Assembly (NCBI RefSeq): GCF_008641065.1
Contig: NZ_VTRS01000005.1
Span: forward strand, 1 to 64,000
DNA: 64,000 nucleotides
DNA from: Rhabdaerophilum calidifontis
GTDB lineage: Bacteria > Pseudomonadota > Alphaproteobacteria > Rhizobiales > Beijerinckiaceae
Reading direction: 5' to 3'
In this document: positions 15,644-28,460 of the stretch, one piece after another
How the letters are laid out: each line of letters begins with the position of its first letter
Numbering within the stretch: the first letter of the stretch is position 1
Notes under the pieces: generated by a model
What the model was told of the DNA's origin: nothing
Databases searched by the model: none
Seen by the model: the letters and a program-made list of their open reading frames with translations, nothing else
Made by a program: the position numbers and the translations under genes

Positions 15644-16552
15644 ATGTCGCGCCCGCGCCGCTTCCTGCCCTCGATCAGCCTGCTCTGCGCCTTCGAGGCG
15701 GTGCTCAGGACCGGCTCCACCGCGGCCGCGGCGCGGGAACTCGACCTCACCCAGGGCACGGTGAGCCGGCTCGTGCAGAATCTCGAGGCCCAGCTCGGGC
15801 TGCGGCTGTTCGAGCGGCATCGGCAGCGCCTCATCCCCGGCGCGGCGGCGCGGGCCTATGGCCGCGACATTTCGCGCGCGCTCGATCTCATCCAGCGGGC
15901 GGGGCTTCAGCTTGCGGCCAATCCCGGAGGCGGAACGCTGGCGCTGGCGATCCTGCCGGCTTTCGGCACGCGCTGGCTGGCGCCGCGCCTCGGCGCCTTC
16001 CAGGCCGCGCATCCCGGCGTGACGCTCAGCATCGCGACGCGGTTGCAGCGGTTCAACTTCGCCGCCGAGGGCTTCGATGCGGCCATCCATTTCGGCGCCG
16101 AGGATTGGCGCGATGCCGGGCATCTCAAGCTGCTCGACGAGACCCTGACCGTCTGCGCCGCGCCGGGGTTTCTCGCCGGGCGGGCGCGGATCGCGCGGGT
16201 CGAGGATCTCGCGACGCTGCCGCTCCTCCAGCTCGGCACGCGACCCGGCGCCTGGGCGGCCTGGAGCGCCGGGCAGGGTGCTGCGCCGCTGGTTGCGCGC
16301 GGCATGCTGTTCGATCAGTTCGCGCCGCTGATCGAGGCGGCGATCGCGGGGCTCGGAATCGCGGTCCTGCCGGATTTCCTCGCCGATCCGGAGATCGAGG
16401 CCGGGCGGCTCGTGCCCGTTCTCGCGCGCGCGGTGCCGAGCGGGGGCGCCTATTGGCTGGTCTGGCCGCGGGCGCGGGAGAATTACCCGCCGCTCGCGGC
16501 GTTCCGCGCCTGGCTCGGCGCCGAAATCGCGCGGGACGCGGCTCGGCGGTGA
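15644..16552 (+). CDS. LysR-type transcriptional regulator (GcvA-like)
   Basis: The 302-residue protein has an N-terminal winged helix ([20 protein letters not shown], then [10 protein letters not shown]) and a periplasmic-binding-protein-like effector domain. The start [16 protein letters not shown] and the mid-domain phrase [13 protein letters not shown] place it in the GcvA-like subgroup. It is transcribed divergently from gcdH across a short intergenic region with a dyad, so control of glutaryl-CoA dehydrogenase is likely. The inducer is not known. Confidence 0.92.
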
Positions 16553-16957: not shown

Positions 16958-18178
16958 ATGAGAATGTCGGTGGTGATGGTGCGGAAGAATCCGCACGCCG
17001 CGAACATGAACGGGGCAGCGGAGCCGGCGCGGCGTGCGGCGCGGGTTTCCGAACTCGAGGCGCAGATCGGGACGATGTTCAAACGTCTCCGGCTCGCCGT
17101 GGTTTATGGCGGGGACAAGCGCGTCGAGGGGGCGGTCATCGAACCGACCGGCAATCCGCGTTCCTGGAAGAGCTACGAGACCGTGGCGCGGGACATCGCC
17201 GCCTCGATGCGTCGGCAGGGCTGCCGCGATGTCAGCCTCGTTCCCGACGACATGCGTCTCGGCGAGGCGATGCGCGAGCGCGACATCCATCTCGCCTGGC
17301 TGAACACCGGCGGCGTGCAGGGGCATTGCTCGGTTGCGCATGCGCCGGCGATGATGGAACTCTTCGGCATCCCCTATATCGGCCATGATCCGATGATGGC
17401 GGGGATCCTCGATTCCAAACACGTTTTCAAGCGCCAGCTGCGCTCCGCCGGGCTGCCGACGGCGGCATTCGCGATCGTCCTGCCCGAGGGGGCGCCCTTC
17501 GAGCCGGAGGCCGACCCGGTCTTCGTGAACGCGTTCGGCGATCATCCGGGGCCCTTCGTCGTCAAGCCGGTCTCCGGCCGCGCCTCGCTCAACGTGCTCT
17601 ATGTCGAGCAGCGCGCGGAACTCGGGGCGGCGATCGACGAGGTCTACGGCCGCACGCGCAATTTCGTGCTCGTCGAGCAATATCTCGGCGGCGCGGAATA
17701 TTGCGTGGCGATCGGTGGACCGGTCATCTGCCGCGGTGGTCGGCTCGAGCGGCTCGACCGGCCGTTCGTGTTCTCGCCGCTCGAGCGGGTGCTCGAACCC
17801 GGCGAGCGCATCTTCACCTCGATGGATGTCCGGCCGATCTCCGGCGACCGGGCGCGGCTCCTCGACCGGCCCGACGATCTGCCGGTGCGCCATGCGCTGA
17901 CCGAACTCGCGCTCGCGGTCTACGAGCAACTCGGCATCGAGACGCTGGTGCGCCTCGATATCCGCGCCGACCACAAGGGCCGGCTCCATGTGCTCGAGGC
18001 CAATCCGAAGCCCGATCTCAAGGCGCCGGAGGGCGGCACCACCAGCCTCGTGGCGCTGGGGCTCGCCGAATTCGGCATGAGCTACGACGATCTCATCATG
18101 TCGGTCTTCGCGGACCGGATCGACGCCCTGCTGAGCCGGCGACGGGGAACCGCCGACCGCCTCGCACGGCTGATCTGA
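16958..18178 (+). CDS. ATP-grasp ligase, D-alanine-D-alanine ligase-like
   Basis: The 406-residue protein has the Ddl-type layout. An N-terminal pre-ATP-grasp domain begins LAVVYGGDKRVEGAV and contains the loop GIPYIGHDPMMAGILDSKHV. ATP-grasp motifs follow: FVVKPVSGRASLNV, FVLVEQYLGGAEYCVAI and the metal-binding LHVLEANPKPDL near the C-terminus. It differs from true Ddl in several places, so ligation of a different carboxylate and amine is possible. The start is uncertain; ATGs at 16964 and 17006 are alternatives. Its stop overlaps the next start (TGATG), indicating an operon with a sensor-transporter. Confidence 0.82.
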   Translation: MRMSVVMVRKNPHAANMNGAAEPARRAARVSELEAQIGTMFKRLRLAVVYGGDKRVEGAVIEPTGNPRSWKSYETVARDIAASMRRQGCRDVSLVPDDMRLGEAMRERDIHLAWLNTGGVQGHCSVAHAPAMMELFGIPYIGHDPMMAGILDSKHVFKRQLRSAGLPTAAFAIVLPEGAPFEPEADPVFVNAFGDHPGPFVVKPVSGRASLNVLYVEQRAELGAAIDEVYGRTRNFVLVEQYLGGAEYCVAIGGPVICRGGRLERLDRPFVFSPLERVLEPGERIFTSMDVRPISGDRARLLDRPDDLPVRHALTELALAVYEQLGIETLVRLDIRADHKGRLHVLEANPKPDLKAPEGGTTSLVALGLAEFGMSYDDLIMSVFADRIDALLSRRRGTADRLARLI

Positions 18179-20589
18179 TGCGAAACCGGGAAGGGCGGCC
18201 CATGGAACTCATACTCTCTCGCGGACGGAGGATCGCGGATGCGCTGGCGATGTTCGTCGTCGCGGCCGTCTCGCTGTTCATTCTGGTTTATGTCGCTTTC
18301 GGGGAGGCGCGCCGGAACTACGAGCGGTTCCAGATCGAGAAGATCATCTCCCAGGGGCAGGTCGCACAATCGGCGGTGGAGGCCTTCGTCCGCCCCGGTC
18401 TCCCGATCCATCAATTCGTGGGCTTCGGCGTCCTGACCGAACCGATCGTCGAGGCGGATCCGCTGATCGACAGCATCGCCGCCTATGATGCCGCGGGCGC
18501 CCGCATCTTCACCTCGATCGGCGGGGCGCAGGCAACCCTGCTCCCGGCCGAAAGCGGGCAGCCCATCGCCGATGGCGTTGCCGAAATCCGGACCACGAAG
18601 GATCTGCTCCAGATCGTGCTGCCGGTGAAGAACCGCTTCGAGACCGTAGGCTCGATCGTGCTGTCCTCGCCGCGAGCAAAGATTTCCGAGAAGGTCGAGC
18701 AGGCCTTCATGCCGCTTCTCGGCATCGCCGGGGCGGCCTCGGTGATGTTCGTCCTCTATGTCGTGCTGTTCGCCCAAAACGGCACGCCGCAGCGCCGTGC
18801 GCGGATGGTCGCCATCGCCTTTGCGGTGAAGTTCCTCGTCGTCTCGGTCTTTGTCGTCCACGCGCTGCTCTCGGTCTATACGCAGGGCGCGCAGGCGCGT
18901 GCCAAGGCGATCGCCGATTCGCTCGCGCAGCGGCTCAACGATGTCGTCGCCTTCGGCTTGAGCTTCGAGGAATTCACCGGGATCGTCGGGCTTGTCGAGG
19001 ATTACAAGCGGCTCAATCCCGAGATCCGCGCCGCGGCGCTTGTGGTCGACGGCAAGCTCCGCGCGCATTCGAGCCCGGCGCCGCGCGAGGGCGGCTGGGT
19101 ATCGGAGGCGCATGATTTCGAGTTCAGCGTCACGCTGACGCCGCCGGATGCCGCGGTGCCGGTGCGGGTGCTGGTCGCGATGCCCAAGGATGTCGTCTAC
19201 AAGCAGGTGATGCGCTCGGCGAAGAATTTCGGCGCGCTGTTCGTCGCCTCGGCCTTCATCGCCGCGCTGTTCATGGGGGTCGCGCGCTCGCTGCAATATG
19301 TCAGCCATTCCGCGCCGGGGCTCGATCCGGACGAGCACGAGAAGGCGACGCTCAATCTCGTCAAGCCGGTCTTCTTCCTCGCGGTGTTCGTCGAGCACCT
19401 CAATTACGCGTTCCTGCCGCAGCTCATGCACGAGATCGCGGCGCGATCGAATCTTTCCAGCGCCTATGCCTCGCTGCCCTTCCTGGCCTATTACCTTTGC
19501 TTCGCGCTGTCGCTCATCCCGGCCGGGCGGCTCAATGCCACGCTCGGCTCGCGCAAGCTGATCATCGCCGGCCTTGCTATGGCGGGCTGCGGCGTGATGC
19601 TGATGTTCTCGATGCATTCGATCGAGATCGCGACGCTGGCGCGCGCGCTCTCGGGGCTCGGGCAGGGCACCCTGTTCATCGGGGTGCAGGCCTATGTGCT
19701 CGCGAATTCGTCCTATCACCGCAAGACACAGGCCGGCTCAGCCATCGTGTTCGGCTTCCAGGCCGGGATGATCGCGGGGATGGCGATCGGCTCGCTGCTC
19801 GTCTCCTATATCGATGTCGGCGGCGTCTTCCAGCTCGGCGCACTGATCGCGCTGATCACCATGTGCTACGCTGCTGCGGTGCTGCCGCAGGGGGTGGACA
19901 GCCGCGAGACGCGCATCGGCACCAGCACCGCCTATCGCGACGTGGTGCGGATGCTGAAGAACGGGCCGTTCCTCAAGTCCATGTTGCTGATCGGCATGCC
20001 GGCCAAGGCGGTGCTGACGGGCGTCATGCTGTTCGCGCTGCCGCTGTTGCTTTCGAAGAGCGGCTTTGCCCGCGAGGATATCGGCCAGATCACCATGGTC
20101 TATGCGGGGGCGGTGATCCTCGCCTCGTCCCTGATCTCGGCCTATGCCGACCGTTCGCGCCAGACCGAGCGGGTGCTGGTGCTTGGCGGGGTCCTGACGG
20201 CGGCCGGGCTGGTGCTGGTCTCGCTGGTCGGGCTCGAGGCGGTTTCGGGCCGGGACGCGCCGCCGCTGCTCGCCACCGCGCTGATCGTGCTCGGCGTCAC
20301 GATCGTCGGCATCGCGCATGGCTTCATCAATGCGCCGGTGGTGACGCATGTGGCCGACAGCCGCATCGCGGGCGAGCTCGGGGTGGCGAATGTCGCCTCG
20401 ACCTACCGGCTCGTCGAACGCTTCGGACACATGCTCGGCCCGGTGATCATCGGCCAGGTCTTCCTGTATTTCGGCCCCTCCTGGGTGACGATCGGCTGGG
20501 TCGGCGCGGCGATCCTGTTCCTGACCGTGCTGTTCCCGAGCGAACCCGAACGGCTCGACCATTCCCAGAACAAACCGGCGGTGGCCTGA
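18178..20589 (+). CDS. MFS transporter with two N-terminal sensor-like modules
   Basis: The 803-residue membrane protein is a rare fusion. Residues 22-42 are a first membrane span, about 43-178 a presumed periplasmic domain, 179-199 and 211-234 two more spans, about 235-350 a second presumed periplasmic domain, and 351-371 a fourth span. From about 395 to 795 it is a major-facilitator permease. The two outer domains have the alpha/beta pattern of Cache-like sensors (for example DSIAAYDAAGARIFTS and AALVVDGKLRAHSS), but that is only resemblance. No kinase, HAMP or methyl-accepting domain follows. An ATG at 18202 is an alternative start. It lies 1 nt from the next gene. Confidence 0.75.
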   Translation: MRNREGRPMELILSRGRRIADALAMFVVAAVSLFILVYVAFGEARRNYERFQIEKIISQGQVAQSAVEAFVRPGLPIHQFVGFGVLTEPIVEADPLIDSIAAYDAAGARIFTSIGGAQATLLPAESGQPIADGVAEIRTTKDLLQIVLPVKNRFETVGSIVLSSPRAKISEKVEQAFMPLLGIAGAASVMFVLYVVLFAQNGTPQRRARMVAIAFAVKFLVVSVFVVHALLSVYTQGAQARAKAIADSLAQRLNDVVAFGLSFEEFTGIVGLVEDYKRLNPEIRAAALVVDGKLRAHSSPAPREGGWVSEAHDFEFSVTLTPPDAAVPVRVLVAMPKDVVYKQVMRSAKNFGALFVASAFIAALFMGVARSLQYVSHSAPGLDPDEHEKATLNLVKPVFFLAVFVEHLNYAFLPQLMHEIAARSNLSSAYASLPFLAYYLCFALSLIPAGRLNATLGSRKLIIAGLAMAGCGVMLMFSMHSIEIATLARALSGLGQGTLFIGVQAYVLANSSYHRKTQAGSAIVFGFQAGMIAGMAIGSLLVSYIDVGGVFQLGALIALITMCYAAAVLPQGVDSRETRIGTSTAYRDVVRMLKNGPFLKSMLLIGMPAKAVLTGVMLFALPLLLSKSGFAREDIGQITMVYAGAVILASSLISAYADRSRQTERVLVLGGVLTAAGLVLVSLVGLEAVSGRDAPPLLATALIVLGVTIVGIAHGFINAPVVTHVADSRIAGELGVANVASTYRLVERFGHMLGPVIIGQVFLYFGPSWVTIGWVGAAILFLTVLFPSEPERLDHSQNKPAVA

Positions 20590-20590
20590 C

Positions 20591-21853
20591 ATGCGCGCGC
20601 TTACCCGCAGATCCCTTCTCGTCTCGGCCGGCCTCGCAGGGCTCGCCGTGGGCCCGGCGCTCGGCCAGGCGGCGTCGCCGCTGCGGGGCGAAATCCTCGC
20701 CGTCGCGCCGGCCCAGCCGCCCGTGGCGCCGGAGCGGGAGCCCTATTGGGCCTGGTTCCGATATGCGCCCGCGATCCTGAAGACCTGGAGTTTCATCGCC
20801 GATCCGCAGGATCCGAACCGTGTGGTCGCCCGCCCGCTTCGCCTCGGTCTCGCTTCGCCGACGCGCCGGGTGCTCGTGGTCTATCCGCGCGCCTCGTCGG
20901 CCTATGACGTCTCGATCACCAAGATTCTCAAGGTGTTCGAGGACAAGCTGCTCGATGCCGAGGTCGTCGCCGTCAATTTCCGCAACGAAGAGGCGCGCGG
21001 CCGGGCGGCGATCGCCTATGCGGAACGCGAAGGCTTCGACCTCATCATGGCGATGGGCTCGGAATCGACCGCCTGGCTGTGGTCGAATTATCGCGGCGGC
21101 CGGCTTCCGGTGGTTTCGGTCTGCTCGAAGGATCCGGTGGTGCTCGGCCAGACGCCCTCCTACGATCAGGGTTCGGGGACGAATTTCGCCTTCACCTCGC
21201 TCAACATGCCGATGGACGTGCAGATGGCCTATGTGCAGGCGCTCAAGCCGCGCCTGCGCAATATCGGCGTGCTGGTCGATTCCAAGAATCTCAGCGCGGT
21301 CGAGACGCAATCCAAGCCGGTGATCGATTACGCCAAGAAGCGCGGCATCCGCGTCCTCGAACTGGCGGTGACCGACCCCGCCAACGCCCAGGCCGAACTC
21401 GCGCGGCTGGTGCCGGCCGCCGCGGCGCAGATGCAGCGCAACGATCCCGATCTCAAGAACTCGCTGTTCTGGCTCACGGGCTCGACCTCGGTCTTCCGGG
21501 AGATCGACACGATCAACCAGCATGCCGGGCGCATTCCGGTGATCTCGGTGGTGCCGGAGATCGTCAAGGAGGGCGACAGCACCGCGGCGATGTCGATCGG
21601 CATCTCGTTCGAATCGAACGCACATCTCGCGGCGGTCTACGCGGCGGAGATCCTCACCGAACGCGCCAGGGTGGACGCGCTCAAGGTGGGGGTGGTCTCG
21701 CCGCCGGATATCGCGATCAGCTTCCGCAAGGTGCGCGACATCGGCATGACGGTGCCATTGTCGATGTTCGAGGCGGCGGGCACGATCTACGACTACGAGG
21801 GCCGGGCCGTACGGATCGACGGCGCGACGGTCCAGCGCGTCCGGACGCATTGA
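20591..21853 (+). CDS. ABC-type substrate-binding protein (PF04392-like), Tat-exported
   Basis: The 420-residue protein starts with a twin-arginine signal (TRRSLLVSAGLAGLAVG) ending near ALGQA. The rest resembles the TrpX-type ABC substrate-binding family, with alternating alpha/beta units such as RRVLVVYPRASSAYDVS, FDLIMAMGSESTAWL and IPVISVVPEIVKEGD. No permease or ATPase gene accompanies it, so it is an orphan. It is flanked by the sensor-transporter and a c-di-GMP enzyme, so sensing rather than uptake is plausible. The ligand is unknown. Confidence 0.85.
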   Translation: MRALTRRSLLVSAGLAGLAVGPALGQAASPLRGEILAVAPAQPPVAPEREPYWAWFRYAPAILKTWSFIADPQDPNRVVARPLRLGLASPTRRVLVVYPRASSAYDVSITKILKVFEDKLLDAEVVAVNFRNEEARGRAAIAYAEREGFDLIMAMGSESTAWLWSNYRGGRLPVVSVCSKDPVVLGQTPSYDQGSGTNFAFTSLNMPMDVQMAYVQALKPRLRNIGVLVDSKNLSAVETQSKPVIDYAKKRGIRVLELAVTDPANAQAELARLVPAAAAQMQRNDPDLKNSLFWLTGSTSVFREIDTINQHAGRIPVISVVPEIVKEGDSTAAMSIGISFESNAHLAAVYAAEILTERARVDALKVGVVSPPDIAISFRKVRDIGMTVPLSMFEAAGTIYDYEGRAVRIDGATVQRVRTH

Positions 21854-22022
21854 TCCGGGCCGTAACGGGGATGGGGAGGCGCGGCCGTGAAGGCCGCTGA
21901 TTGGAAGCGATGGTGCAGTCCGGATTGGACATGGATGGCAATGCGGCGATCGAGATCGCCGGCGACACGCAGGACAGGCACCTCCGCCGGTCCGGGCCGG
22001 CTTCTCGCGCGCGCAGGCGGCC

Positions 22023-24587
22023 GTGCTCCGCATGGCGCTCGGCGGCGCGCCGATCGACGCGCTGTTCGAGCGTGCGGCCGGGGCGCTCGAGGCGCTGATC
22101 CCCGGCGCCGCCTGCCTCATCGAGCTTGCGCGCGGGCCTGGGGGCGACGGATTCCGCTCGGCGCGGCTGCTCGCCGGGCCGCTGACGATGCAGTTCGGCC
22201 TCGATGCGGAGCCCGTCTCCTGCCTGGCGCGCGCCTGCGCCGGCGCCGCCCCGATCACCGTGCAATCCTTCGCGCGCGATCATCAGATGCCGGAGCATGG
22301 CCTGCGCGCGATCGCGGCCGGGTATCACAGCGCCATCGCGCTGCCGCTCGTCGCCGACGGCGCCGAGACGCCGATGGGGGCGATGGCGATCTATTTCCCG
22401 CGCGAGAACGGGCCGGATACCGAGACGGTCGCCAAGATCGAGGCCTTTGCGACGATCCTGTCCGAATTGCCGGAACTGGTCTTCGCCCGCCGGCGCGGCG
22501 AGCGCGCCGATGCGCAATTCGCCGACCTCGCCGAGACCATTCCCGGCGTCGTCTACCAGCGCGTCGTGCGGCCGGACGGCGATATCCGCTACACCTACAT
22601 CAATTCCGGCGCGAAGGATCTGTTCGGCGTCGATCCCGAGACCGTGCTGCGCGATCCGGAGGCGCTGTTCACGCATTTCAGCGCCGATTACCGCAAGACC
22701 TTCAAGCAGCGGCTGATGGCCGCCTCGCAGGAGTTGCGGACCTGGGATGTCGAGGCGCAGATCGTCCGCCCGGACGGCTCCACCCGCCATACGCATGCGA
22801 TCGCCCATCCGCGCCGCGAGCCGGACGGATCCGTGGTCTGGACCGGCGTGATCCTCGATGCCACGCGCATGAAGCTCGCCGAGGCCGAGGCGCAGGAAAC
22901 CGAGGCGCGGACCCGGCAGGCGATCGTCGAGAGCTTCTCGCAGGGGCTGCTGCTGTTCGATCACGACGGCAGGCTCGTCGTGCGCAATTCGAAATTCATC
23001 GAGATCAATCCGGGCCTCGAGACCGTCGCCGTGCCCGGCGCGCGCTATGTTGACGTGCTCAAGGCCGAACTCGACCCCAAACGGGCCGGGCACAACATCG
23101 AATCGGACGCGACCTTCGAGTTCTGCGAGCGGCTCGCCAAGCACAACAAGGGGCAGGGGATCGTCTTCGAGCGCCAGATCGCGGGCGACCGCTGGATCCT
23201 CATCAACGATCATCCGACCGAGACGGGCGGCAAGGTGGTGCTCTACACCGATGTCACCGAATTGAAGCGCCGCGAGCGCCAGATCGAGCATATCGCGCAT
23301 CACGATGCGCTGACCGGGCTGCCCAACCGGGTGCTGTTCCGCAAGAAGCTCGAAGAAGTGCTCAGCCATGCCGAGATCGAGCAGCGGCCGGTGGCGGTGA
23401 TGTTCGTCGATCTCGACCGGTTCAAAGCCGTGAACGACACGCTGGGCCACCCGGTGGGCGATGCGCTGCTTCAGGTCATCGGCCAGCGCATCCGGGACGC
23501 CTTGCGCGCCTCCGACGTGCCGGCAAGGCTCGGCGGCGACGAATTCGCGGTCATCCTGCCGCATGGCGCCAATACCGAGACGCTGACCTCGCTCGCCTGG
23601 CGGCTGATCGATGTCGTCAGCCGGCCGGTGGAGATCCGCGGCCATACGGTGGTCGTCGGGGCTTCGATCGGCATCGCCATCAGCGGCGAGGGCGGCTATT
23701 CGGCCGATTACCTGCTCAAGAGCGCCGATCTCGCGGTCTATCGCGCGAAATCCGACGGCAAGGGCACGTTCCGCTTCTTCGAGGCGGAGATGGATGCGGT
23801 GGCGCAGGAGCGGCGGGAACTGGAGATGGATCTCCGCGCCGCGATTCGGAACGGCGAACTCACGGTGTTCTACCAGCCGCAGGTCGATGTCTTCACCGCG
23901 CAGATCGTCGGCGCCGAGGCGCTGCTGCGCTGGAACCATCCGCGTCGCGGCGCGATTCCGCCCTCGCAATTCATCCCGCTCGCGGAGGAGACCGGGCTGA
24001 TCGCCGAGATCGGGCCCATGGTGCTGTTCCAGGCCTGCCGCGATGCCGCCGCCTGGCCGCTGCCGGCGCGCGTGGCGGTGAATTGCTCGCCGGCGCAGTT
24101 CCAGAACGGCGATTTCGTGCGCCTGGTGCGCGAGGCGCTCGAGGAGACGGGGCTCCGGCCCTCGCGGCTCGAGATCGAGATCACGGAATCGATCCTGCTG
24201 CGCGATACCGACAAGAACCTCGCCATCCTGCACGGGCTCAAGGCGCTCGGCGTGCGCGTCTCGATGGATGATTTCGGCACCGGTTATTCCTCGCTCGGCA
24301 ACCTGCGCTCGTTCCCGTTCGACAAGATCAAGATCGACCGTTCCTTCATCGCGGATCTCAAGAATTCGGTGGATGCGGCGGCGATCATCCGCGCGGTGGT
24401 GTCGCTCGGCCGCTCGCTCGGCATCACCACCACGGCGGAAGGGGTCGAGACCCGCGACCAGCTCACCTATCTGCGCGCCGAGGGCTGTGCCGAGGTGCAG
24501 GGCTTCTATTACAGCGAGGCGCGGCCGAATGCCGATATCCTCGCCATGCTCGCCGCCTCGCCGGACGGCGTGATCGTCCCGAAATAG
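22023..24587 (+). CDS. GAF-PAS-PAS-GGDEF-EAL c-di-GMP enzyme, possibly frameshifted at its start
   Basis: The 854-residue frame carries a GAF-like region (about 10-165), two PAS-like regions (about 175-285 and 300-410), a GGDEF domain and an EAL domain. The synthase motif is intact (RLGGDEFAVIL), preceded by an RxxD inhibitory site (RASD). The phosphodiesterase domain keeps GAEALLRW and DDFGTGYSSL, so both activities are possible. The start used here is GTG 22023, but codon bias suggests the real N-terminus begins upstream in another frame around 21901-21990, with a missing base. It is the last gene of the operon, ending before a terminator. Confidence 0.88.
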   Translation: MLRMALGGAPIDALFERAAGALEALIPGAACLIELARGPGGDGFRSARLLAGPLTMQFGLDAEPVSCLARACAGAAPITVQSFARDHQMPEHGLRAIAAGYHSAIALPLVADGAETPMGAMAIYFPRENGPDTETVAKIEAFATILSELPELVFARRRGERADAQFADLAETIPGVVYQRVVRPDGDIRYTYINSGAKDLFGVDPETVLRDPEALFTHFSADYRKTFKQRLMAASQELRTWDVEAQIVRPDGSTRHTHAIAHPRREPDGSVVWTGVILDATRMKLAEAEAQETEARTRQAIVESFSQGLLLFDHDGRLVVRNSKFIEINPGLETVAVPGARYVDVLKAELDPKRAGHNIESDATFEFCERLAKHNKGQGIVFERQIAGDRWILINDHPTETGGKVVLYTDVTELKRRERQIEHIAHHDALTGLPNRVLFRKKLEEVLSHAEIEQRPVAVMFVDLDRFKAVNDTLGHPVGDALLQVIGQRIRDALRASDVPARLGGDEFAVILPHGANTETLTSLAWRLIDVVSRPVEIRGHTVVVGASIGIAISGEGGYSADYLLKSADLAVYRAKSDGKGTFRFFEAEMDAVAQERRELEMDLRAAIRNGELTVFYQPQVDVFTAQIVGAEALLRWNHPRRGAIPPSQFIPLAEETGLIAEIGPMVLFQACRDAAAWPLPARVAVNCSPAQFQNGDFVRLVREALEETGLRPSRLEIEITESILLRDTDKNLAILHGLKALGVRVSMDDFGTGYSSLGNLRSFPFDKIKIDRSFIADLKNSVDAAAIIRAVVSLGRSLGITTTAEGVETRDQLTYLRAEGCAEVQGFYYSEARPNADILAMLAASPDGVIVPK

Positions 24588-24787: not shown

Positions 24788-25558
24788 TCAGAACGGCAGG
24801 ACGATGTCGAGCACCTGCTGGCCGTAGCGCGGCTGCTGCACGTCGGTGATCTGGCCCCGGCCGCCATAGGCGATGCGCTGCTGGGCGATCTTGGTCGATT
24901 CGATGGTGTTGCCGGCCTCGATATCCTCCGGCCGCACCACGCCCGCGACGATCAGTTCGCGGACCTCGAAATTGACCCGCACCTCCTGCCGGCCCTCGAT
25001 CACGAGATTGCCGTTCGGCAGCACCTGCGTCACCACGGCGGCGATGTCGGTTACGAGCTGCTCGGAGCGCTTGACGGTGCCTTCGCCCTTCGAGCTCGAG
25101 CTGGAGCCGAGATCGACGAGGCCCTTGCCGGTGGCGCCGCGGGCGAAGATCTTGTGCAGGCGATCCTCCTGGCCGAAGAAACCCTCGACATCCACGCCCT
25201 CGGCATTGGTGCGCTTGCGCTCGGTCGTGTTGTCGATCGCCGCCTTGTCGGTGATGCGGACGCGCACGGTGAGCAGGTCGCCGACCTGCTGCGCGCGCTG
25301 ATCCTTGAAGAAGGCGCGGCTGCCGGTGCGCCAGAGCGAATTCGCCTGGTAGGCGACGGGTTTCGGCTCCGGCATCGGCATCTGCACCGGCTTGTAGCCG
25401 GGCTGGGCGGTGGGGTTCTCGATCGCCGAGAGTGCCGGCGCCTTGCCGACATTGGCGAGGCGGTCGAGCGAGCCGCAGGCCGAGAGGCCGAGCGCGGCGG
25501 TGCCGGCGAGGGCGAGGCGCAGCGCCGAACCGGCGGCGGGGGCGGAATGGGTGGGCAT
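24788..25558 (-). CDS. flgH: Flagellar L-ring protein FlgH
   Basis: FlgH forms the outer-membrane L-ring around the flagellar rod. The 256-residue protein has a lipoprotein signal with lipobox LSACGS, the conserved SLWRTGSRAFFKDQRA and VGDLLTVRVRITDKAAIDN segments, and the C-terminal GRGQITDVQQPRYGQQVLD. ATG 25558 (MPTHSAPAAG) was chosen over a longer in-frame start. It is the last gene of flgF-flgG-flgA-flgH, 22 nt after flgA. Confidence 0.95.
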   Translation of the reverse strand: MPTHSAPAAGSALRLALAGTAALGLSACGSLDRLANVGKAPALSAIENPTAQPGYKPVQMPMPEPKPVAYQANSLWRTGSRAFFKDQRAQQVGDLLTVRVRITDKAAIDNTTERKRTNAEGVDVEGFFGQEDRLHKIFARGATGKGLVDLGSSSSSKGEGTVKRSEQLVTDIAAVVTQVLPNGNLVIEGRQEVRVNFEVRELIVAGVVRPEDIEAGNTIESTKIAQQRIAYGGRGQITDVQQPRYGQQVLDIVLPF

Positions 25559-25580
25559 GACGGTGTTCCTTCTCGCGCGT

Positions 25581-26564
25581 TCAGCGCTGGGCCGGGCTCG
25601 CCGCCGGGCTCTTGGCTTCGGCGACATGGGGGATGTGCGGGGGCGGCGTCGTGATCGTCACCTGCTGGGAGCCGGTCACGATGCCCTCGATCGTCCGCTT
25701 GGACTGCGGGTTCTGGACGCGGATCGTGTCGCCCTTGGCGCCGCCGGCGAGGGCGCGGCCGCGCATCGAGAGGCTCAGCCCCTTCACCGAATAGGTCACG
25801 GTGACGATCTGGTTCTTCTCGACGAGGAGCGGCTTTGCCATGTCGGCGTTGCGGATCGGCTCGCCGGCGCGGAGCGCGCGCCGGGGGACGAGGCCCACCA
25901 GTTCGGCCCCATTGGCGATGATGTCGGAGGGCACCTGCGCGGCCGGGCGCCTCACCAGGGTCAGGTCCTTCGCCTGCACCGCGTCGCCGCGTTCGAGATC
26001 GGCCACGGGAACGGCGATCTCGCGGAACTCGGCCACCGAGCCGGTGACGAGCCAGGATTCGCTCTCGTCGGCGCTCGTCAGCCGTGCCTCGAAGCGGCCG
26101 GAGCGCGGATCGCGCTGGATCTGCGCGACGCGGATCGTGCCGGCGCGGCGCAGGTCGACGGTGCGCGCAGTGACGGTGTCGTCGAGCGTCACCTCGATCA
26201 GCACCGGGCCGCCCGCAGGGGCGAGGGCACGGGTGACGAGTTCCTGCATCTCGGCGCGGGCGACGGCCTTGCCGGGACGGATCACCGTCACGGCGCGGAA
26301 CGGGGCGGGATCGATGTCCTCGATGCCGAGTTCGCGCGCGGCCTCGAGAATGCGATCGACGCGGATCGTGCCGCGCCCGCCCGGCGCCGGGGCGCCGAAC
26401 AGCGCGATCTCGCCGCGCTGGTCGAGCCCCTCGACGAGATCGCCGAGCCGGATCGTATCGGCGTCGATCACGGCCTGGGGCCGGATCTTGGCCGGTGCGG
26501 CCAGCGCAGTCCCGGCCATAAGGCCGCAGACCAGCGCGCCGGAGAGAAGGAGGCGGAGTTTCAT
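25581..26564 (-). CDS. flgA: Flagellar P-ring assembly chaperone FlgA
   Basis: FlgA is a periplasmic chaperone that assists FlgI in forming the P-ring. The 327-residue protein has a signal peptide (LLLSGALVCGLMAGTALA) and a C-terminal SAF-type domain with LERGDAVQAKDLTLVRRP and RRALRAGEPIRNADM. It is longer than enterobacterial FlgA, as is usual in alphaproteobacteria. flgI itself is not in this window. Operon position between flgG and flgH supports the call. Confidence 0.93.
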   Translation of the reverse strand: MKLRLLLSGALVCGLMAGTALAAPAKIRPQAVIDADTIRLGDLVEGLDQRGEIALFGAPAPGGRGTIRVDRILEAARELGIEDIDPAPFRAVTVIRPGKAVARAEMQELVTRALAPAGGPVLIEVTLDDTVTARTVDLRRAGTIRVAQIQRDPRSGRFEARLTSADESESWLVTGSVAEFREIAVPVADLERGDAVQAKDLTLVRRPAAQVPSDIIANGAELVGLVPRRALRAGEPIRNADMAKPLLVEKNQIVTVTYSVKGLSLSMRGRALAGGAKGDTIRVQNPQSKRTIEGIVTGSQQVTITTPPPHIPHVAEAKSPAASPAQR

Positions 26565-26575
26565 GGCGTGCCCCC

Positions 26576-27367
26576 TCAGCCGCGGAACATGCCGGAGGTC
26601 GCCTGCAGCATCTGGTCGGCGCCCTGGATGATCTTGGAATTCAGCTCGTAGGCGCGCTGCGCCTGGATCATCGCGGCGATCTCGGTCACCGCGTTGACGT
26701 TGGATTCCTCGAGATAGCCCTGCTGGATGTTGCCGAAGCCTTCCGAGCCGGGCGTGCCGTCGATCGCCTGCCCGGAGCCGGCCGTTTCGAGGAACAGGTT
26801 GTCGCCGATCGATTCGAGGCCGACCTTATTGATGAAGCGCGACATGGTGAGCTGGCCGATCTGCTGCGGCACCGTGTCGCCCGGCAGCAGCGCCGAGACC
26901 TGGCCCGTCTGGCTGATGGAGACGCTGGTGGCGTTGGGCGGGATGGTGATGCCGGGATCGACGACATAGCCTTCCTTGGTGGTGATGCGGCCTTGCGAAT
27001 CGGTCTCGAAGCCGCCGTCGCGGGTATAGGCGGTGCGGCCGTCCGGAAGCTGGACGCGCAGGAAGCCCTCGCCGCGGATGGCGAGATCATAGGTGCGCTC
27101 GGTCTGCGTCACGTTGCCCTGGCTCATGATGCGCGGGGTCGCGACGACCTTGGTGCCCGAGCCGAAGAACAGGCCGGCGGGAACCTGGGTGTTCTGGTCG
27201 GAGGTCGGCGAGCCGGAGCGGCGGTGGTGATCGTAGAGCAGGTCCTGGAAATGGACCGTCTGGCGCTTGAAGCCGTTCGTGCGCATGTTCGCGACGTTGT
27301 TCGAGATGACCTCGACGTTCTTCTCCTGGGCAGACATGCCCGTGGCAGCGGTATAGAGGGCGCGCAT
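26576..27367 (-). CDS. flgG: Flagellar distal rod protein FlgG
   Basis: FlgG builds the distal rod of the basal body. The 263-residue protein has the expected N-terminus (MRALYTAATGMSAQEKNVEV followed by ISNNVANMRTNGFKR) and the C-terminal coiled-coil motif SNVNAVTEIAAMIQAQRAYE. Length matches other FlgG proteins. The ATG at 27367 is the homologous start; the longer frame continues antiparallel into flgF. It lies 29 nt after the flgF stop. Confidence 0.96.
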   Translation of the reverse strand: MRALYTAATGMSAQEKNVEVISNNVANMRTNGFKRQTVHFQDLLYDHHRRSGSPTSDQNTQVPAGLFFGSGTKVVATPRIMSQGNVTQTERTYDLAIRGEGFLRVQLPDGRTAYTRDGGFETDSQGRITTKEGYVVDPGITIPPNATSVSISQTGQVSALLPGDTVPQQIGQLTMSRFINKVGLESIGDNLFLETAGSGQAIDGTPGSEGFGNIQQGYLEESNVNAVTEIAAMIQAQRAYELNSKIIQGADQMLQATSGMFRG

Positions 27368-27396
27368 GGCGGGGATTCCTTGTCCCTGGAATGGTG

Positions 27397-28137
27397 TCAG
27401 ATCGGTTCGCCGAGCCGCTGGATCGCGGTCCGGCGGGTCTCGTCGGTGCGGCTGATGAGGCTCGCGATGGACTGGTACTGACGCGTGACTTCGATCATCC
27501 GGCTGATCTCGACGACCGGCCGGACGTTGGAACGCTCGATGAATCCGCTCTGCACGCGGGCATCGGTCGCGACCTGCGCCGGCTGCGTGCTCGCGAAGAG
27601 ATTGGCGCCGGCGTTCTGGAGCGCCTGCGGGTTCTGGAACCGCACGATGCGCAGCCGGCCGCGCGAGCCGTTGGAGGAGGAGACCGTGCCGTCGCCGGTG
27701 ATGGCGAGGTTGGTCTCGTCGCTGGAGAAGGTGACGGCGCCCTGCTCGCCGACGACGGGATGGCCGTCGGAGGTGACGAGCTGGCCCTGCGCGTTGACCA
27801 TCATCGCGCCGTTGCGGGTATAGCGCTCGCCCTGCGGTGTCTGGACGACGAGCCAGGTATCGCCCGGAAGCGCGATGTCGAGCGGATTGCCGGTGCGCTC
27901 GAGCGTTCCGGTGGAGAGGTCGAGCGGCGTGCCGCGATCGACGACGAAGGACACGCGGCGGTCCGCCCCGCGCCGGAACGTATCGCCGGACGCGACCGGC
28001 ATCTGGAATTCCCGGCTTTCGGCCGAGCGGCGCTTGAAGCCGTTGGTCGTGACGTTCGCGACATTGTTCGCGATGACGTCCATTTCGCGCCTGAGCGCCA
28101 TCTGGCGCGACAGGGCGATGAGAAGAACGTTCTCCAT
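27397..28137 (-). CDS. flgF: Flagellar proximal rod protein FlgF
   Basis: FlgF is a rod protein related to FlgG. The 246-residue protein begins MENVLLIALSRQMALRREMD and has IANNVANVTTNGFKR near the N-terminus and VRPVVEISRMIEVTRQYQ near the C-terminus. This start is typical of alphaproteobacterial FlgF. It is the first gene of the minus-strand rod operon and is divergent from fliL. Confidence 0.95.
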   Translation of the reverse strand: MENVLLIALSRQMALRREMDVIANNVANVTTNGFKRRSAESREFQMPVASGDTFRRGADRRVSFVVDRGTPLDLSTGTLERTGNPLDIALPGDTWLVVQTPQGERYTRNGAMMVNAQGQLVTSDGHPVVGEQGAVTFSSDETNLAITGDGTVSSSNGSRGRLRIVRFQNPQALQNAGANLFASTQPAQVATDARVQSGFIERSNVRPVVEISRMIEVTRQYQSIASLISRTDETRRTAIQRLGEPI

Positions 28138-28460
28138 GGAACGTACCCCTTTGCTCCTCGAATGATGGCCCGTTCTCCTCGCTCCCCAGCGCGAGACCGT
28201 TCCGATGCATTAACCAGAACAAGCGCCGTGCCAGCGCGGCGGGTTCATAAAAAGCGAGACAAATCAGTTCGCTGATCGAAATCTCCGCCTGCGAGGATCA
28301 GGGTCGAATTCGCCGGTCGGCAGAAATGATCGGGCAAATTTTGCCGCGCGGAGCGAAAACGAAAGTCTTCGTTAACCATGGTCGCGGCAACGTCGCTCTC
28401 GGGCAGGGCGAGCCGATTCCGGAACGTGCCGACCCGATTGTCTGATGCGAACGCGCGGAA
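28138..28460. other. Divergent control region between flgF and fliL
   Basis: No gene is supported in these 323 nt. Visible elements include a TTAACCATG CtrA-type half-site at 28372-28380, a second TTAACC at 28210-28215, a 13-nt palindrome GGCAAATTTTGCC at 28333-28345 and a small TTCG hairpin at 28263-28276. These suggest cell-cycle-linked control of both flagellar operons; no protein binding is proven. Confidence 0.5.

Follow-up and report, generated by a model that had tools for sequence, protein, structure and literature searches.

Several described systems combine elements of the kind considered here. LuxP-LuxQ consists of a binding protein and a double-PAS receptor, sensors of the UhpC type are major facilitator superfamily (MFS) proteins tied to signaling, and TRAP and TTT systems are secondary transporters that depend on a substrate-binding protein (SBP), with DctP or Bug proteins in that role. 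Cache-domain receptors form a further class, and the table of such receptors in PMC4822843 lists kinases, methyl-accepting chemotaxis proteins, cyclic di-GMP (c-di-GMP) enzymes, phosphatases, cyclases and others. As for binding proteins, the passage of PMC8846402 on the PBP clan presents SBP_bac_3 as its only family studied in c-di-GMP networks. In this study, we analyze a locus in a stretch of 64,000 nt (the window) from contig NZ_VTRS01000005.1 of Rhabdaerophilum calidifontis (assembly GCF_008641065.1). Here, a ligase (G1), a sensor-transporter (G2) and an exported binding protein (G3) are followed by a c-di-GMP enzyme (G4). The triad G1-G2-G3 is probably a small-molecule signaling platform of which both the enzyme and the output can be exchanged. 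The combination of enzyme, sensor-transporter and binding protein with a changing output suggests a modular system not described before; no description of the cassette was found in open-licence literature, covered by titles and the starts of abstracts, with most subscription journals outside this scope.

G1, G2 and G3 are inherited as one unit. We searched 199 genomes of the order with G2 as a protein and with G1 and G3 as alignments (E <= 1e-30), few candidates being scored per genome in this and the other surveys (at most 5 to 9). All three occur in the same seven genomes (G000, G018, G024, G036, G042, G113 and G147), and no orthologue of any of them was found in the other order genomes surveyed; G082, which belongs to the same genus, lacks all three. 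At E <= 1e-10, G2 matches 21 of the 199 genomes, seven over its whole length and the other 14 by the MFS half only. In the survey of the class (385 genomes), G1 was found in ten genomes and full-length G2 (>700 bits) in nine, i.e., the same ten minus G321. In the phylum (398 genomes), G1 matched four genomes, namely its own, two of its family and one with an unrelated fusion protein; the latter (G655, locus L082), in which ATP-grasp is fused to an M20 peptidase in a chain of 750 amino acids, was rejected as an orthologue. A scan of genome contigs added 13 further loci. The comparison below is based on 27 loci (the window, L030-L042, L067-L073 and L076-L081; L074 and L075, both of G321, and L082 were left out), where L-numbers denote loci of relatives and G-numbers genomes.

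G1, G2 and G3 lie together in 27 of the 27 loci, and only the two loci of G321 carry the ligase alone. Irregularities are the order G2-G3-G1 in L037, a G1 cut by the contig end in L042 and frame breaks in G1 or G3 of the draft loci L032, L038 and L039. Measured from the nearest candidate start, G2 and G3 overlap or lie at most 15 nt apart in 25 of the 27 loci (61 nt in L076, 78 nt in L077). The pairwise distances among the G1, G2 and G3 proteins correlate with coefficients of 0.82-0.92, to which shared species ancestry contributes. The preliminary description of this DNA had proposed a four-gene operon and a genome search for the co-occurrence of its genes, with failure to find them together in relatives speaking against it. 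The search bears out the joint conservation for three of the four genes, while different outputs can stand in the fourth position, the c-di-GMP gene being one of them; a fixed four-gene operon was rejected, as the fourth gene varies between loci. That unrelated genes became neighbors by accident is scarcely credible: although two of the 27 loci have no signaling neighbor and the G1-like genes of G321 stand alone, the survey contradicts this explanation, since the three genes share one phyletic pattern across 199 genomes and are neighbors in 27 loci from several families.

The output type beside the triad has been exchanged, and the c-di-GMP gene is not a fixed part. A signaling gene lies beside the triad in 25 of the 27 loci, in some of them convergent or divergent and not in the same operon; for comparison, the whole genome of 3.09 Mb holds 9 GGDEF and 22 HATPase_c matches. 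By similarity to G4, the output is of the GGDEF-EAL type in 13 loci, with proteins cut by contig ends in L032 (after residue 188), L034 (after 534) and L081 (after 645). Three loci have a hybrid kinase instead (L036, L038, L042) and five a kinase (L068, L069, L070, L072, L077), the latter with receiver proteins next in L069, L070 and L077. Single cases are receiver and receiver-Hpt proteins (L040), a GAF protein truncated by the contig (L067), a dCache nucleotide cyclase (L071) and a dCache kinase one open reading frame (ORF) away from the triad (L073); both dCache proteins have two hydrophobic segments. A quick tree of G2 implies at least three changes between GGDEF-EAL and phosphorelay outputs and nine over all states, with L071 and L073 on long branches.

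G4 itself is predicted to be a c-di-GMP enzyme: Pfam gives PAS_3-PAS_7-GGDEF-EAL, with GAF_2 just below its cut-off (26.1 versus 28.6 bits), and GGDEF, RxxD and EAL motifs are present in the translation. The input region of G4 matches the eight kinase partners with 150-281 bits, and the next match in its own genome is confined to the second PAS and scores 46.7 bits (obtained with a different program, so that the comparison is rough). Among these eight partners, PAS_3 is found in all, GAF_2 in three (L068, L069, L070) and PAS_7 in three (L069, L070, L077); L069 and L070 keep the whole GAF-PAS input module and the other partners a part of it. There is no hydrophobic segment in G4 and in six of the eight kinase partners, and a weak one in L068 and L072; most of these outputs therefore must read something inside the cell.

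G1 passes the broad Pfam model PF07478 (Dala_Dala_lig_C/ATP-grasp; 54.9 bits, cut-off 24) and falls far short of the curated Ddl models, with a best NCBIfam score of 73.8 bits where the cut-off is 243 (25 of 30 families listed). The structure prediction that had been suggested for the ATP-grasp protein was run (pLDDT 80) and gave a Ddl fold, the best Foldseek match being DdlB 8evz (23% identity, TMt 0.81). G1 shares with Ddl (PF07478) this fold and the ATP-binding half; the stretches VKP, VE.Y..G.E, R.D and LEAN/LEVN align. In contrast, the stretches HGPFGEDGTVQG and NTQPGMTETSL of the Ddl of the same genome, which we take to carry the substrate sites, correspond to NTGGVQG and NPKPDLKxPxxxTSL in G1. 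The substrate-site motifs of Ddl are thus not kept, and other conserved stretches, NPKPDL among them, are found instead (MAFFT and hhalign, against the genome's own Ddl only). The ordinary Ddl gene sits on contig C11 between MurB-like and FtsQ-like ORFs, as named from their translations. Together, the NCBIfam scores, the altered stretches and this separate gene rule out that G1 is an ordinary Ddl, the possibility that would have undermined the preliminary description. Presumably, G1 is an ATP-dependent ligase acting on substrates other than those of Ddl. Genome G321 encodes two G1-like ligases (L074:7398-8543 and L075:80-1285), which are about 42% identical to G1 and lie close to contig ends.

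In G2, about 390 additional residues at the N-terminus precede the MFS domain, which Pfam MFS_1 recognizes at residues 400-729 (119.8 bits). Hydropathy places transmembrane (TM) segments at about residues 24-37, 182-195, 215-231 and 353-366; combined with the model (pLDDT 79), the order is TM, PAS/Cache-like module, TM, TM, PAS/Cache-like module, TM and then MFS. The two extracytoplasmic modules that had been suspected before are hence supported by both approaches, and the model predicts the extracytoplasmic PAS-like fold between two TM helices that marks Cache-domain receptors. With the G2 model, Foldseek retrieves sensor domains of WalK/YycG and dCache ligand-binding domains of amino-acid and polyamine chemoreceptors, one match reaching E <= 0.001; the TM-scores are low, as long helices and two modules are present in one model. 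Up to E 0.1, G2 has no match to a Pfam Cache family, and the term Cache-like therefore rests on fold. If the MFS half no longer transported, G3 and G2 could form a receptor similar to LuxPQ or UhpC, with G1 as a side enzyme. The tandem periplasmic PAS-like modules do resemble dCache receptors by fold, and the LuxP-LuxQ entry 2hj9 appears as a weak match at Foldseek rank 50 (E 0.079). We nevertheless consider such a mere receptor unlikely, as residues of the MFS half, among them the stretches R...GxGQG in TM4 and YR..ER.GH..GP in TM11, are invariant in the 14 aligned rows, as expected of a working transporter.

Far relatives show that the enzyme has been exchanged too, while the sensor-MFS and the PF04392 protein are kept and the outputs are mostly SpoIIE. 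In the 14 genomes of the order that match G2 by the MFS half alone (L083-L096), families were assigned by similarity to members named by Pfam. Sensor-MFS, PF04392 protein and SpoIIE phosphatase are present in all 14, a GNAT in 13 (with weak Pfam scores, some below cut-off), an RsbW-like protein in 12, STAS in 11 and an alanine racemase in six; L083 lacks a GNAT and carries a formyltransferase-like gene. Thirteen of the 14 also have a sensor gene, separate from the MFS gene, that encodes one module. These separate genes match the G2 profile at positions of about 10-220, and the N-termini of seven of their MFS proteins match 205-367 (in the exceptions L085 and L091, the MFS N-terminus matches the first module). 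G2 therefore appears to be such a sensor gene fused to a sensor-MFS gene. The clusters (e.g., L094:5735-16000) comprise HAMP-SpoIIE, RsbW-like and STAS proteins and, in several cases, a second MFS-like sensor protein; apparently, they are partner-switching systems with a small-molecule enzyme set, of which no description was found in open-licence literature. At L085:12540-14246, a guanylate/adenylate cyclase-like domain and an anti-sigma-type HATPase_c_2 domain are joined in one chain.

Further class genomes with a G2 match but no G1 match number 22, and the comparison covers 12 of them (L101-L112). L101 (7907-13956) and L102 (4293-10616) encode an MFS protein of double-module length, a G3-like protein (E 2e-92 and 7e-114, respectively) and a TauD-type dioxygenase; there is no G1-like gene in these two loci, and the dioxygenase takes the place of the ATP-grasp ligase. 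The output is SpoIIE in L102, with no recognized output in L101. Among the remaining ten, a GNAT is encoded in L103, L104, L106, L110 and L112, accompanied by ATP-grasp_4 in L104 and L106 and by an alanine racemase in L103. L109 has a GCS2-like protein, L111 a protein of the pyridoxal phosphate (PLP) type, and L105, L107 and L108 no recognized enzyme. SpoIIE is found in L104 and L106-L111, and L103, L105 and L112 have no recognized output. Over all 53 loci (27 + 2 + 14 + 10), the PF04392 protein lies within about 3 kb of the sensor-MFS in every case and a candidate modifying enzyme is present in 50, where single cases may be due to chance since GNAT and PLP genes are common. In L105 (5890-6867), a binding protein of the NMT1_3 type adjoins the PF04392 protein and the sensor-MFS, next to a secretin gene.

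The binding protein G3 belongs to ABC_sub_bind (PF04392); its sequence matches in the PDB are 6hni and 3lft, and its best NCBIfam family is TrpX, with 38.7 bits against a cut-off of 390. Regarding its proposed export by the twin-arginine translocation (Tat) pathway, a Tat-like RR motif is indeed present, and a simple pattern detects one in 6 of the 13 rows of an alignment, that of the window among them. As had been noted before, the binding protein comes without ABC partners: there is no permease or ATPase among the scanned neighbors in the window (LysR, G1-G4, FlgH, FlgA, FlgF) nor among those scanned in the loci of relatives (part of the ORFs), and these genes do not make up an ABC uptake system.

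These data agree more closely with a signaling platform than with a system for nutrients, given that ligation or acylation is the chemistry of many of the enzymes and that the outputs are regulatory. For substrate, direction of transport, docking and signal path, we infer the following course. G1, as an ATP-grasp amide ligase with non-Ddl pockets, would produce or complete a compound resembling an amino acid. This compound would be exported by the MFS half of G2, captured outside by G3 and presented to the two Cache-like modules. The transporter would double as receptor or feedback gate, and its state might reach the cytoplasmic GAF-PAS input of the output protein via contact with G2 or via the intracellular level of the compound. 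In the window, c-di-GMP would then be synthesized or hydrolyzed. That a product is exported and sensed again is our favored, yet tentative, proposal, and we would not call it probable. Several observations weigh against it. The NCBIfam matches of the MFS half, all far below their cut-offs, start with the aromatic acid/H+ symport family and the L-lactate transporter, thus with importers, ahead of tetracycline/multidrug efflux. The TM5 stretch of the class A MFS proteins reads GMAIGSLL and not GPPIGG as in many far relatives, the reference being what we take to be antiporter motif C. Uptake is the usual role of binding proteins, the triad is without a signaling neighbor in L037 and L039, and the two G1-like genes of G321 occur with no G2 or G3 match. 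Finally, with G3 outside and a soluble output protein, the signal path is a guess. Among PDB sequences, the exporter MdfA ranks first as a match of the MFS half; the sequence matches thus point both ways and do not settle the direction of transport.

Only slightly less likely, though doubtful too, is the opposite direction, in which G3 takes an amino-acid-like compound from the environment, G2 imports it as an SBP-assisted MFS transporter, G1 conjugates it and the GAF-PAS module reads ligand or conjugate inside. The exchangeable enzymes would then be tailored to different environmental compounds. The annotation of PF04392 proteins as uptake binding proteins, the TrpX match and the two importer families agree with this, and the input domains (PAS in 8/8 kinase partners, GAF in three) in mostly soluble proteins could respond to an imported ligand. 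On the other hand, efflux families and MdfA are near the MFS half too, and many of the enzymes catalyze ligation or acylation instead of degradation, an argument qualified by the often catabolic role of TauD dioxygenases. The same efflux matches would suit a cassette for self-protection that senses and exports an amino-acid-like antibiotic, e.g., a D-alanine analogue, modified by the enzyme. Acetyltransferases, alanine racemases and Ddl-like enzymes, all present in the cassettes, are also found around D-amino-acid drugs. Such a role is nonetheless quite improbable, as c-di-GMP, kinase and SpoIIE outputs are unusual for resistance and G1 does not keep the substrate-site motifs of Ddl.

The autocrine circuit of the preliminary description has gained in plausibility through the exchange of the enzyme around a kept sensor-MFS and binding protein, and loses some of it through the importers among the nearest MFS families. 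Extending our proposal of export and re-sensing, Alphaproteobacteria might own a modular autocrine family with a constant core of Cache-MFS and PF04392 protein and with swappable signal-making enzymes and outputs, producing lineage-specific signals derived from amino acids; we regard this as speculative and rather doubtful. The enzymes would be the Ddl-like ligase, TauD dioxygenase, GNAT with alanine racemase or ATP-grasp_4, and GCS2-like ligase, and the outputs c-di-GMP, phosphorelay, nucleotide cyclase and SpoIIE partner switching. If true, a transporter-receptor with swappable enzyme and output would be a general platform for small-molecule sensing or communication in Alphaproteobacteria. 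Each locus would yield a pair to compare, the product of the enzyme and the ligand of the binding protein, and there would be a candidate input for a large number of c-di-GMP enzymes, kinases and SpoIIE partner switches that are orphans.

Table 1. Features of the cassette in the window.
Feature	Position	Strand	Basis
G1: divergent Ddl-fold ATP-grasp ligase, 406 aa	16958..18178	+	Pfam PF07478, model, Foldseek, NCBIfam
G2: double-Cache-like MFS transporter	18202..20589 (ORF can begin 18178; homologues favor 18202)	+	Pfam, hydropathy, model
G2 predicted extracytoplasmic PAS/Cache-like module 1, ~residues 45-180	18310..18717	+	Hydropathy, model, Foldseek
G2 predicted extracytoplasmic PAS/Cache-like module 2, ~residues 240-350	18895..19227	+	Hydropathy, model, Foldseek
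G2 MFS domain, ~residues 396-785	19363..20532	+	Pfam MFS_1 1.6e-34
G3: exported PF04392 substrate-binding protein without ABC partners	20591..21853	+	Pfam ABC_sub_bind 4.6e-13
G4: GAF-PAS_3-PAS_7-GGDEF-EAL, no predicted TM segment	22023..24587 (start uncertain)	+	Pfam, motifs in translation
G4 input module GAF-PAS_3-PAS_7	22053..23276	+	Pfam; kept wholly or partly in histidine-kinase partners of relatives
G4 output module GGDEF + EAL, exchangeable part	23295..24518	+	Pfam, comparison of loci

The four co-directional ORFs are present in the order described before (Table 1). The 1-nt overlap of G1 and G2 reported then needs an ATG at 18178; a gap of 23 nt is more likely because L030, L031 and L033 have no in-frame start codon upstream and L032 starts at the site matching 18202. 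Upstream of the GTG at 22023 (window 21888-22023), the similarity of G4 to L030-L033 goes on (FSRAQ..VLRMAL) with no ATG, GTG or TTG in frame, and the true start probably lies there. A scan for sigma-70-type promoters found none versus 0.9 expected. G4 is followed on the minus strand by FlgH-, FlgA- and FlgF-like genes (window 24788-28222). The flagellar link drawn from this neighborhood is not supported: flg genes lie near only 4 of the 27 loci, i.e., the window and its close relatives L030, L031 and L033, several loci having short flanks, and appear lineage-specific. The LysR gene at 15644 has only weak LysR matches elsewhere, in three loci.

The cassette can be compared with the known systems. 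As in UhpC-type sensors, an MFS protein is linked with signaling, whereas here this protein has additional sensor domains outside the membrane and is accompanied by a ligase and a binding protein. As in TRAP and TTT systems, an exported binding protein is combined with a non-ABC transporter, yet this transporter is an MFS protein with sensor modules, and PF04392 replaces the DctP or Bug proteins. With the Cache-domain receptors of PMC4822843 the cassette shares a Cache-like module outside and signaling inside; the main text of that paper is without the words MFS, major facilitator or transporter, whereas G2 belongs to the MFS. Closest to LuxP-LuxQ is the pairing of a periplasmic binding protein (G3) with tandem periplasmic PAS/Cache-like modules (G2), but here the receptor is a 12-TM transporter instead of a kinase, and the output is a separate, exchangeable protein.

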